This document shows positions 4,873-9,433 of a DNA stretch of 42,359 nucleotides, piece by piece. The stretch is taken from assembly GCA_027618565.1 (NCBI GenBank), contig JAQCEQ010000023.1:1-42359 (forward strand), written 5' to 3'. Under the pieces are notes generated by a model that made no database searches, was not told the origin of the DNA, and worked only from the letters and a program-made list of their open reading frames with translations. The translations under genes were made by a program, and so were the position numbers. The stretch comes from Planctomycetota bacterium. Lineage in GTDB: Bacteria > Planctomycetota > Phycisphaerae > Phycisphaerales > SM1A02. Within the stretch, counting starts at the first letter, position 1. Each line of letters begins with the position of its first letter.

Positions 4873-6246
4873 TCAGTCGTGCGGGCTGGCGTGAAGCAGG
4901 GCGGCATGCCTCATTCGCCGGGCGAGGAACAGGAACACGCCCATCCCCGCCAGGTTCACGATGAAACACGCCGCGAAGCTCCAGGCGGCGCCCTCGATTC
5001 CCAGCGCATCATCCAGTGACTGATAAATGAAGATGATGAGGAAGGGGGCGATCAGTGCGCGAACGCCATTGTTCGTGACATGCACCGCCATGTACTCCGC
5101 GTCGCGATGCTTGGGGGCAAAGTCCTGGTGCCCAAGGTTCCACGCAAGCACGCCGCCGCCAAAGCCAATCCCGAGCAGCACGGACGCCACATAGAAGCCA
5201 GCCAGCGATCCGGCGAGCGCACTCGCCAGCATCATCGCGGTGGCACACACGAAGGACCACCCGTGCACGGCGCGGAACTGCGCCGCGTGGACCCGCGCCA
5301 TGTATCTGGCCCAGAGCGGGATCGCGATGGGCATGACCGCCAGGGGGATGATCGTCGTGGCCAGGATCGACTCCAGGTAGCTGGCACCAAACTCCTGCTC
5401 CAGGAAGAGGATCTGCGGTGGCGTGATCATCAGGTTGCCCATCCCAAAGATGAACATGCCGATCATGAAGAGCCGGTAATCGGGATCATCGCGCAGGACA
5501 CGAAGGAGTGCGGCGGGATTCACGCTGGGGCGTTCGTGTTCCTTCGCCTCGCGTTCCTCGCGCACGATCGATTCCTCGTTGAGCAGGTGGACGCGTCGGT
5601 AGAGCGCATTGCCCACCAGTCCAAGTGCGGCGAGCGCCGGGAAGAGGACGTGGTACGAACGGGCGTCCATGTCCATCGACTGCCCAATAGCCAGCCCGGC
5701 CACCGCCAGGATCGCGGCCTGCACGGTGGCCATCTTGCCAGCGATCTGCGCTCGATTGGCACGGGGGAAGTTGCGGCGCCACACGGAAGTGCGAATCGTG
5801 ATGACCCCGGTCCAGCAGCAGCGCGAGAGGAAGGTGAGCGCCACCACCATCCACAGGCCGATGGCCGTGACGGGAACGAAGGCGATCGCCGCGACTCCCA
5901 ACGCCGTGGCCACCTGCAGTCGTGCGATGAATGGGACCTTTGGGCGCCCGTGGGCCCACGCCGCCCAGAGGAAGCTGCAGAGATTGGCCACGTTGGGTGC
6001 GGCGGTGACCGCCGCGACGGCGATGTCCAGGGTGGCTTGGTCGACCCCTTCCACCCCCGAGAACCCCTTGTTCACCACCACGCCCAGCGCGCCGCCTTCC
6101 ATCGCGCCCAGCATGAACGGCAGGAAGCACCAGGAGAGGAGCTCACGCGCGTAGTTGACCTGCAGGTGCTGGGGAAGGCGCTTGGGACTGAAACTTTCGA
6201 CCATGCCGGCGACGGCGTGGACGGGAAGCATCAGGAAGCGTCGCAT
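4873..6246 (-). CDS. MFS-type membrane transporter
   Basis: A 457-residue integral membrane protein with about ten to twelve hydrophobic segments and the overall pattern of the major facilitator superfamily: two groups of helices split by a charged cytoplasmic loop (about 228-245, N-E-E-S-I-V-R-E-E-R-E-A-K-E-H-E-R). I cannot name a substrate. The N-terminus (M-R-R-F-L-M-L-P-V-H) fits a start at ATG 6246, though no clear ribosome site is visible. The gene is 154 bp upstream of rpsA on the same strand. On its other side the structured-RNA element at 6291-6518 lies 44 bp from its start; read on the reverse strand that element would be part of its leader, so regulation through it cannot be excluded. 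Confidence 0.8.
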   Translation of the reverse strand: MRRFLMLPVHAVAGMVESFSPKRLPQHLQVNYARELLSWCFLPFMLGAMEGGALGVVVNKGFSGVEGVDQATLDIAVAAVTAAPNVANLCSFLWAAWAHGRPKVPFIARLQVATALGVAAIAFVPVTAIGLWMVVALTFLSRCCWTGVITIRTSVWRRNFPRANRAQIAGKMATVQAAILAVAGLAIGQSMDMDARSYHVLFPALAALGLVGNALYRRVHLLNEESIVREEREAKEHERPSVNPAALLRVLRDDPDYRLFMIGMFIFGMGNLMITPPQILFLEQEFGASYLESILATTIIPLAVMPIAIPLWARYMARVHAAQFRAVHGWSFVCATAMMLASALAGSLAGFYVASVLLGIGFGGGVLAWNLGHQDFAPKHRDAEYMAVHVTNNGVRALIAPFLIIFIYQSLDDALGIEGAAWSFAACFIVNLAGMGVFLFLARRMRHAALLHASPHD

Positions 6247-6277: not shown

Positions 6278-6283
6278 TACGAT
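6278..6283 (+). promoter_or_regulatory. Possible -10 box for the structured RNA
   Basis: TACGAT ends 7 nt before the first paired base of the RNA element at 6291, the spacing expected of a -10 box. No good -35 hexamer is visible 16-18 bp upstream. The surrounding ten bases (TGGCTACGAT) recur exactly at 30103-30112 upstream of the citrate synthase gene, which weakly supports a promoter role. Confidence 0.35.
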
Positions 6284-6290
6284 CATTCCG

Positions 6291-6518
6291 GCGCCCGTGT
6301 CCTCCGGGCGGCATCGGCAGGCCAGTTGTCCGAACCGATGCGTGAACCCTTGGGATCGCTGACAAGTCCGCGACGATGGTCAAGCCTCACGCCCTTGCGG
6401 TGGAGTGGAAGGCCGGGATCGATGGACGGCGAGCCCACCTACAAGCAGGGTTCGGGCCTATGCCCGCCGTGTTTCGCCGCACTTCGGTGCGCGTCACACG
6501 CCCGGAGGACACGGGCGC
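6291..6518 (+). ncRNA. Candidate structured RNA, family not recognised
   Basis: The ends pair through a perfect 20-bp helix (P1: 6291-6310 with 6499-6518). Inside it I can draw P2 (6311-6317 with 6335-6341, 7 bp), a long arm P3 (6344-6350/6447-6453; 6351-6354/6434-6437; 6356-6359/6429-6432; 6366-6369/6424-6427; 6374-6377/6418-6421; 6378-6381/6411-6414; tip 6386-6393 with 6399-6405), P4 (6454-6457 with 6462-6465) and P5 (6478-6482 with 6487-6491). P5 is closed by a cUUCGg tetraloop only when read on the plus strand, and one P3 mismatch is A-G on that strand, both favouring plus-strand transcription. It fills most of the 311-bp gap 6247-6557, with no credible protein frame. I see no RNase P, tmRNA or SRP signature; a 6S-like RNA remains possible. 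On the reverse strand it would be a leader of the MFS gene. Confidence 0.6.
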
Positions 6519-6557: not shown

Positions 6558-8060
6558 TCACCGGCCAGAGAACGAGGGACCGAACAGGGTTCGCAGGTCG
6601 CCAGTGTCCACGCGCTCCCACCGGCGTGGTGGCGCGGGTCCGGCGATCGGAGAGAGTGCCAGCGGCACCACGATCTCGCCGTCCCACCAGGAGACATCAC
6701 CCGTGGGCGGTGGATCCGCCGGGTGCGTGGCGCGAAGGGCCATGTCCCGGTCTCCGGTAATGCGCAACGACCATGCGTCGGTGGACGCTCGTGCGCGTGC
6801 CAAGGAGAGGAGGTCCTCAACGGGGATCTCGAAGTCGCTCCCTGAACCGTCCCACCAGATGCGGGAGAGCCGCCGTACCGCGATGCCCTCGCGGACTTCG
6901 ATGCGCAAGCCGATGCGCGTCGCCGCGTCGTCAGCGCTGGATGTGCGCCGAGGATTGAACCGGAATCCGAACCGGGTGCCGTCTTCCCAGCACCAGAGTT
7001 CGGGGCCGAGGGCCTCACGAACGGCCTGCCGGAGTTCCTCGCTGTCGCGGCCAGTGGGTCGGCACTCGATGGGCTTCACCCGCACGCTGAGTTTCCTCGT
7101 GTCGCATGTGGACCAATCGCTCCCCGGCCATTCGCGCTCCCTCAGGGTGAGGGTCACCACTGGTTCGATCGGGCTCTCCGTCGGTCGGGCGACCGGGACG
7201 GGCATCGAGAACGATCCCGAGCCATACGGCCGCCATCGATACACGGATGGGGCGCCGAGGGCGCTGGACTGGATTGTGAGCTCAAGTTCGGCGGCGGGCC
7301 GAGTCTCGCTTGGTCGGAGGAACAGGGCGGGGGTCTCGATGGAGACCCACAGGAGCGTGTTCGCGTGCGCCGAAGTCTCGATCGTGGGCGCATCGCCCTC
7401 GGGGAGCCAATGGAGGGATGGCGGCGTCGTGAGGAGCAAGGCTGCCCACTCCTCACTGGCTCGTCGGCAGGCATCGTTCTCGGCGCGATCCGGCTCCAGC
7501 TGAAACCAGGCCTCCGTGACTGGAGCGAGCGGTGAATGCGGGTCCGCCGCGGTCGCGCGCACGGCGCGGTCCACCGCGGGAATGAGCTCATCTCCGGGGA
7601 GCGTGGAGGCGACGCGGAAGGCGAGTTCACCGCAGGCGTCCCTTGCGAGGTCGCTCTCTGGCCACCACTCCGCCACGAGCGACAGCGCCGAGCTTGGCAC
7701 CAGCGAGATCGGGCGCGTCTCCACCAGACCGCCGCGATACGCGATGAGCCCGACGAACGCCAGCGCGAGGGCAACGAGTGTGAGCGCGCGACCGCGGCGC
7801 GGCGAGCGCCGATTCGGGAAACCCCGGCGCGGTTGGTGCCCACACTCGGTGCATCGGGTGGGGTGCACGGCGCAGGAGTCGGGTGCGGTGGCCCCGGGGC
7901 CGAGGGGTTCAGGCAGCGGGGGCTGTTGGTGATCGCACCTGGGGCAGTGTCGACCCTTCGCGGCTCGACCACGCCACGCCACCAAGGCCAATCCAAAGAG
8001 TGCCGCAGTCCCCGCCAGCCCGACTGAGAACAAGAGGAGCAGGAGCCACTCCCGCGTCAT
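6558..8060 (-). CDS. Membrane protein with cytoplasmic zinc ribbon, unknown function
   Basis: A 500-residue protein from ATG 8060; the longer frame upstream is a shadow of the permease gene. A first membrane helix spans about residues 5-29. Two CxxC knuckles follow (C-P-R-C at 39-42 and C-T-E-C at 70-73), giving a zinc-ribbon-like segment, then a second helix at about 92-109 and a large domain of about 390 residues. With two helices, that domain and the ribbon lie on different sides only if the ribbon loop is the one facing the opposite face; I infer orientation loosely. The start overlaps the permease stop as ATGA, so the two are translationally coupled. It is the last gene of the S41/LolA-like/ABC operon. 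Planctomycetes have many such ribbon-plus-helix proteins; no function is assigned. Confidence 0.75.
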   Translation of the reverse strand: MTREWLLLLLFSVGLAGTAALFGLALVAWRGRAAKGRHCPRCDHQQPPLPEPLGPGATAPDSCAVHPTRCTECGHQPRRGFPNRRSPRRGRALTLVALALAFVGLIAYRGGLVETRPISLVPSSALSLVAEWWPESDLARDACGELAFRVASTLPGDELIPAVDRAVRATAADPHSPLAPVTEAWFQLEPDRAENDACRRASEEWAALLLTTPPSLHWLPEGDAPTIETSAHANTLLWVSIETPALFLRPSETRPAAELELTIQSSALGAPSVYRWRPYGSGSFSMPVPVARPTESPIEPVVTLTLREREWPGSDWSTCDTRKLSVRVKPIECRPTGRDSEELRQAVREALGPELWCWEDGTRFGFRFNPRRTSSADDAATRIGLRIEVREGIAVRRLSRIWWDGSGSDFEIPVEDLLSLARARASTDAWSLRITGDRDMALRATHPADPPPTGDVSWWDGEIVVPLALSPIAGPAPPRRWERVDTGDLRTLFGPSFSGR

Positions 8061-9433
8061 CGGACCAGAGCCCAGCGAAACAGTTCGAGCGGCGTAGGGG
8101 TCTTGCCCTGCATGAGGACGCCGACACGGAAGATGCGCGACGCGATCCACAGGAACGCCACGCTGCTGATCGCCGAGAGCACCACGGTCGCGGGAATCTG
8201 CCAGTACGGAATCGCCTCGGTCGTTCCCGTCGCCCGGAGGATCATCACGAATGGCGTGAGGGGAGGGATGAAGCTGGTCACGACCGCCAGCATCCCGTTG
8301 GGGTTCTCGCTGATCGGGAGCCAGAGGACGAGCGGCACCATCACCACCAGCATCACCGGCCCGACCAGCGACTGTGCCTCCTTGAGGTCGTTGACCGCGC
8401 TCCCGACCGCAGCCATCATCGCCGCGATCATGAAGTAGGCGGTCACGCCGTAGCAGACGAGGAGCACCAAGCTCAGGGGAGTCACGAGGTCCGCCATGGC
8501 CGCCAGCACCAGCCCGGCGATGCCAAGCGAGCCGTAGATCGCCAGCATGAGGAGCGAAACCATCCCATGGCCCAGCACCTTCCCAACGAGGATCTCGAAC
8601 GGGCTGGCGGCGCTCAGGAGCACCTCCATGACCTTGCTGGACTTTTCTTCGATGGTGGACGTCAGCAACTGGTTGGCGCCGGTGAAGACGACCATCCACA
8701 TCAGGATCATGAACCCCATCGGGACGAGCATCCGCCCCGCCAGCGACTCGGGCGCCTCGGCGCCGTCCTCGGAGATGCGGACCGTCAGTTCCTCGGGGAG
8801 CGAGAGCAGTGCGCTGAGGGCGGCGTGGTCCTTGCCCGCACGATCCAGTCGGGCCTTGACGATGCCGGCACGGAGTGCGCGCGTGAAGAGGCTCGTGTGG
8901 CTGGGCGATGTCCAGGTCGCGACGGCGAGGGTGAACGTCTCGCCCTTCGCGGGCGGTGCGTCCAGGAGCCCACCGGGCACCACGGCGTACGCCAGGCAGT
9001 GGCCGTTGCGCAGCGACTCCTTGAGCTCGCCCTCAGTGAGCCCGGTCGCCTCAAACGAGACCGACACGTTCTCCGATGTGTCCTGCGAACCCGCAGCGGC
9101 GCTCAAGGCCAATTCGCCGGCGTCCATCGCACCGGAACGAGCTGCATCCGCCAACTCCTGCGCGTTGAGGGAGTGGCGCGCCAGGATCGACTCAAGGGCT
9201 CCCTGCGCTGCGGGAGCCACGGTGCCGGAGCCGTCGGATACCAGCACCTGCCCACTCACGGCGCGTGGGCCCTCGTGGAGAAGGGTCGGGATCACGGCGA
9301 ACGTCACCACCATCACCGCGGGAACGATGAGCACCCCGAAGATGAACCCCTTCGTGAAGACCATCGCGGCAAACTCGCGCCAGGCGATGGCACTCACGCG
9401 CCGGGCGAAGTGGCGTCGTCGGGTGGCGCTCAT
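8057..9433 (-). CDS. ABC-2 type (NatB-like) transporter permease
   Basis: A 458-residue permease. One N-terminal helix (about 25-50) is followed by a large extracytoplasmic domain to about residue 235, then a bundle of five or six helices. The cytoplasmic coupling motif E-E-K-S-S-K-V-M-E-V-L-L-S, typical of NatB and related ABC-2 exporters, follows the second helix. The family moves ions, drugs, peptides or lipids outward with energy from a separate ATPase, here the adjacent upstream gene. The stop overlaps the next gene by ATGA and the start overlaps the ATPase gene in the same way, pointing to fixed stoichiometry. The substrate is unknown; the LolA-like and protease neighbours suggest an envelope-related cargo. 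Confidence 0.9.
   Translation of the reverse strand: MSATRRRHFARRVSAIAWREFAAMVFTKGFIFGVLIVPAVMVVTFAVIPTLLHEGPRAVSGQVLVSDGSGTVAPAAQGALESILARHSLNAQELADAARSGAMDAGELALSAAAGSQDTSENVSVSFEATGLTEGELKESLRNGHCLAYAVVPGGLLDAPPAKGETFTLAVATWTSPSHTSLFTRALRAGIVKARLDRAGKDHAALSALLSLPEELTVRISEDGAEAPESLAGRMLVPMGFMILMWMVVFTGANQLLTSTIEEKSSKVMEVLLSAASPFEILVGKVLGHGMVSLLMLAIYGSLGIAGLVLAAMADLVTPLSLVLLVCYGVTAYFMIAAMMAAVGSAVNDLKEAQSLVGPVMLVVMVPLVLWLPISENPNGMLAVVTSFIPPLTPFVMILRATGTTEAIPYWQIPATVVLSAISSVAFLWIASRIFRVGVLMQGKTPTPLELFRWALVR

Follow-up and report, generated by a model that had tools for sequence, protein, structure and literature searches.

What kind of RNA is encoded between positions 6291 and 6518 of the window, the 42,359-nt stretch of DNA from a Phycisphaerales bacterium (Planctomycetota) analysed here? 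The original prediction described a structured RNA of unrecognised family on the plus strand of this region. The region sits in a 311-nt gap between two minus-strand genes, an adjoining MFS transporter gene (4873-6246, starting at 6246) and a gene without Pfam family (6558-8699, ending at 6558), whose listed open reading frame probably extends too far in the 5' direction. Sequence comparison confirmed that 6291-6310 is the exact reverse complement of 6499-6518, so that the predicted 20-bp helix joining both ends is present. Likewise, the cUUCGg loop was found at 6482-6487 (loop 6483-6486), and the TACGAT box (6278-6283) ends 7 nt before 6291, as had been claimed. The plus strand of 6291-6518 had a minimum free energy (MFE) of -130.2 kcal/mol compared to a mean of -101.1 kcal/mol for shuffled sequences (z -6.9; 0/200 shuffles equal). 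Because the minus strand also folded strongly (z -5.5), the strand could not be read from folding energy alone and was assigned from the homologues, the RNA models and the promoter; all significant model matches at the locus lay on the plus strand. A structured plus-strand RNA with these boundaries is thus upheld. Longer plus-strand frames across the element resembled mechanical high-GC frames, and the element occurs once in this genome.

6S RNA is a small bacterial RNA that turns RNA polymerase off and on. We are highly confident that this bacterium's single-copy 6S RNA gene (the equivalent of ssrS) lies here, on the plus strand, with a probable primary transcript of ~228 nt (6291-6518), based on its fold, Rfam matches, homologues and a family-specific covariance model. 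At curated Rfam thresholds, only a tRNA was matched in the window. A relaxed search returned RF00013 (6S RNA) as the sole match at the locus (6310-6474, plus strand), covering the full length of the model (positions 1-187). Its score of 21.2 bits, compared to a cut-off of 46.4 (E 0.036 over 601 bases and all families), is weak evidence for 6S when taken alone. A DNA similarity search revealed homologous loci throughout the family of the window, and in the majority of 20 of these RF00013 matched at the corresponding place on the same strand, with up to 42.1 bits, the weakest matches being individually insignificant. The cut-off itself was passed by homologous loci of four genomes from sister families in the same order (47-69 bits), and one of these four loci (in G041:C99) coincided with a weak DNA match of the window. 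An RF00013 search of the organism's own whole genome did not report the locus, even though cmscan of the stretch matches there; the match was probably dropped by the first-look filter rather than being absent.

A covariance model (R1) built from 20 sequences, all of the window's family, scored the four over-cut-off loci of the order at 80-91 bits and recovered 13 of the 20 strongest over-cut-off 6S loci of the wider phylum at their 6S core. Since none of these loci was in the training set, the window is homologous to 6S members that pass the cut-off. The remaining seven wider-phylum loci and E. coli ssrS were not reported by R1. The family is therefore not an unrecognised one: the element is an RF00013 homologue with continuous homology to loci above the 6S cut-off, and this identity is the outcome that the original prediction had named as removing the novelty while confirming the RNA. 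The Rfam threshold marks a limit of detection and does not define 6S RNA biologically. While 6S biology is already known, the form in this Phycisphaerales lineage is almost certainly 6S RNA in a divergent variant missed by the standard cut-off.

R1 found exactly one match per genome in 109 of 121 family genomes (78 of the 82 of good quality); several of the genomes without a match are incomplete, four are not. Searches with R1 and RF00013 gave no other 6S-scoring locus in this genome. Across the phylum, RF00013 matched in 152/343 genomes (E <= 0.01). In one sister family (f2; genera g36, g48, g63, and g64), most of the sampled high-quality genomes had neither an R1 nor an RF00013 match, and 6S RNA has either been lost there or is even more divergent. 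6S RNA has been reported missing in two planctomycetes, Pirellula staleyi and Rhodopirellula baltica (PMC5673643, citing Wehner 2014). As a whole Phycisphaerales family carries one 6S RNA per genome below the Rfam cut-off, a local model should be used to recheck such reports of absence in this phylum. A single pattern match in a Mycobacterium locus (L116) is probably due to chance.

The rod structure was based on a sequence-only alignment of 29 members. In the ground state, the 27 named pairs were paired in 96.4% of cells, and 14 of them had changed on both sides. None of 500 shuffles reached any of five measures, and slid versions of the structure were only 23-50% paired. As part of the named structure comes from the consensus of these very sequences, the slid control is biased in its favour; no such bias affects the shuffles or the agreement with the independent architecture of Rfam. 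The covariation that the original prediction had suggested testing was found among the homologues, far above shuffles for the ground state, and at the level of sequence it supports a 6S rod of closing stem, central bubble and apical stem. In this rod, the 5' strand of the closing stem (GUCCGAACC, 6328-6336), which is also the predicted template for a product RNA (pRNA), pairs with the 3' strand GGUUCGGGC (6449-6457). This helix 1 was paired in 95% of cells, with both sides changed in three pairs. Below it, a lower closing stem (6315-6322 with 6462-6469) forms with one mismatch in the constrained fold. The pairing of 6330-6336 with 6449-6455, previously regarded as a competitor of other helices, does exist and is the conserved closing stem. 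The central bubble is formed by 6337-6351 on the 5' side and 6437-6448 on the 3' side, as judged from alignment and covariation, and the apical (internal) stem (6352-6436; helices 2-5) has the form GGGaUCGC...GCGAgCCC with a variable tip. Compensatory changes were seen in helices 2-4, and the GGG and CCC that close the apical arm were invariant in the 29 sequences. The bubble-flanking GGGA and CCCACCU (6434-6440) of 6S RNA are both present and agree with the RF00013 consensus.

An alternative helix, mutually exclusive with the closing stem, can form between GAACCCU (6344-6350) in the 5' bubble and AGGGUUC (6447-6453), and its two strands covary. Across 51 loci, the strands fitted their own partners better than swapped ones and 0/5000 permutations reached the observed score, which is not a calibrated probability since the loci include close relatives. 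Likewise, none of 500 shuffles had as high a covariation score for this collapse helix. Its column counts point the same way, although a one-base register shift in the genus of the window weakens them. The clearest case is locus L027, where AGCCUGCGA/UCGCAGGUU replaces GAACCCCAA/UUGGGGUUC. The two folds of the window RNA lie at -129.3 and -127.9 kcal/mol, and the gap of 1.4 kcal/mol slightly prefers the collapsed fold; indeed, the MFE fold already holds the helix 6344-6350/6447-6453. With two folds this close and both helices covarying, the earlier suggestion of alternative states stands. The multi-branched main fold described for this RNA is a real MFE structure; its most fitting reading is the second conserved 6S state, collapsed (release), to which a genus-specific 5' hairpin is added, while the conserved ground state is a rod with one side hairpin. 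The 5' hairpin (6311-6341, previously called P2) competes with the closing stem; it is kept in L009, has changed pairs in L010, and is not evident in other genera. The family sequences thereby provide comparative evidence for selection on both the ground and the collapsed state of 6S RNA.

A rod with a central bubble, and pRNA synthesis, are described for 6S RNA, and a collapse helix in the central bubble is known from B. subtilis 6S-1 and A. aeolicus 6S RNA, where the pRNA frees the 3' strand (PMC8876501). Transcription from the -10 box at 6278 would produce a long rod whose central bubble mimics an open promoter. This rod would bind the holoenzyme of RNA polymerase with the housekeeping sigma factor and keep the polymerase inactive, for instance during stationary phase. 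Once nutrients are available again, the polymerase would copy the 5' strand of the closing stem (GUCCGAACCGAU, ending at U6339) into a short pRNA beginning AUCGGUUCGG, opposite U6339. By displacing the 3' strand GGUUCGG, the pRNA would free it to pair with the bubble sequence GAACCCU as the collapse helix, and the polymerase would be released. The predicted start at 6339 is the putative equivalent of E. coli U44 by position and sequence: GGCCAGUUGUCCGAACCGAU and the ssrS segment GGCCAGUCCCCUGAGCCGAU are identical at 15/20 positions, with the predicted template ending in CCGAU6339 and the E. coli segment at U44. By analogy with characterised 6S RNAs, we infer polymerase binding, the start site and synthesis of the pRNA, pRNA-triggered refolding and release. 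The comparative evidence for selection on both states lends support to the collapse-helix release route beyond Bacillus and Aquifex.

Upstream of the core, a TAnnnT box corresponding to TACGAT (6278-6283) was present at a distance of 40-68 nt in 48 of 51 homologues (expected 11; maximum 19 in 200 shuffles) and was usually unique within 110 nt. This -10 box places the start near 6290-6291, at the first paired base, while the 3' end of the transcript is deduced from the outer helix. No T run of at least 4 as part of an intrinsic terminator was found in the 150 nt past the core end (to ~6609). A single copy with a conserved -10 box of its own agrees with 6S RNA as an independent gene with its own promoter in one or few copies. 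Comparison of homologues establishes, at the level of sequence, the 6S homology, the fold, both alternative helices and the promoter.

Beyond the canonical rod, the RNA carries a branched terminal arm, consisting of the outer helix (6291-6310 with 6499-6518; perfect 20 bp) and a 3' side hairpin with the cUUCGg loop (6470-6498), which appears in both the MFE and the constrained fold. The outer helix is long in the window's family (median 25.5 scored pairs, some of them inflated by extension beyond the helix), and its sequence differs among relatives. Nevertheless, the outer arms paired better with their own partners (mean -81 kcal/mol) than when swapped (-62 kcal/mol); the duplex measure, taken over 75 and 140 nt, is a generous one. 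The 3' spacing between closing stem and outer helix has a median of 42 nt in the family (~30-50 nt in most sampled members), compared to ~18 nt with an outer helix of ~18 pairs in sister families. The side insert is common, not universal, as five sampled family members are without it. A motif resembling CCCNTCGGG occurs in the 5' outer arm (6291-6310 in the window) of most relatives. The GCCCG-N7-CGGGC arrangement proposed for self-folding of each arm is present; because self-folding of the 5' arm across relatives was no better than shuffled (mean z -0.26), self-folding arms were given no weight. That the branched arm was gained by the 6S RNA of this family and does something beyond the canonical rod is a tentative idea, which we regard as rather unlikely; if true, the arm might bind a further protein, replace a terminator or end-processing system, or tune release.

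The architecture also leaves room for a different function. Ms1 RNA of Actinobacteria associates with polymerase by binding the core enzyme (PMC9130861, PMC4191392) and has a 6S-like architecture structurally related to 6S RNA (PMC9130861), so that fold alone would permit an Ms1-like RNA, acting on core polymerase without sigma factor and without pRNA. What sets Ms1 apart in the literature is its report from Actinobacteria and its binding to the core enzyme. The full-length RF00013 matches in relatives make such a function very improbable, as does the covariation in the two elements that serve release by pRNA, the template strand of the closing stem and the collapse helix. The low 6S score of the window (21.2 bits) and a terminal arm missing from the 6S model could be taken to mean that the RNA belongs to a new, unrelated family whose likeness to 6S stems merely from a long GC-rich rod. 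This is contradicted by the R1 recovery of 6S loci in the order and wider phylum and by unbroken homology from the window to loci above the cut-off; moreover, the bubble sequences (CCCACCU, GGGA) and the type of alternative helix are those of 6S RNA, and the family has a single copy, leaving this reading hardly any credence.

An inverted repeat in an intergenic gap could likewise be a cis-regulatory leader, a terminator or a mobile repeat between the flanking genes. The RNA lies on the opposite strand to both of them and is therefore a leader of neither, its single genomic copy rules out a mobile repeat or MITE, and many genera have kept it together with a -10 box of its own; we assign this explanation a next to negligible probability. 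Three other structured RNAs were ruled out as the identity of 6291-6518, as their matches all lie elsewhere in the genome: RNase P RNA (RF00010) at G000:C55 with 232 bits, tmRNA (RF00023) at G000:C27, and, for large SRP RNA (RF01854), a best match of 55 bits (cut-off 60) to part of the model at G000:C59:20806-20931. In line with the original prediction, signatures of RNase P, tmRNA and SRP were absent from the locus itself.

As a 6S RNA, the element shares the rod, closing stem, central bubble and apical stem with B. subtilis 6S-1 and A. aeolicus 6S RNA, in which the 3' strand of the closing stem can likewise pair with the distal 5' bubble (PMC8876501). It differs from this type in that the window's family scores below the Rfam cut-off, has an outer helix of ~20-28 bp, usually with a 3' side hairpin, and has a collapse helix of up to 9 bp. 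E. coli ssrS is similar in the template segment before U44 (15/20) and in the GC-rich stems flanking the bubble, but rearranges via a 9-bp hairpin inside the 3' bubble instead of a collapse helix (PMC8876501); its flanking genes are also unlike those of the window. In the sister families of the order, 6S RNA is a nearly symmetric rod, often with a TATAAT box and a separate T-run terminator. As to the genomic context in the window's genus, an MFS gene lies divergently beside the 6S gene in both genomes (4873-6246 in the window; 1654-3144 in L009), and in L016 an MFS-like gene is likewise found on the upstream side of the 6S locus.
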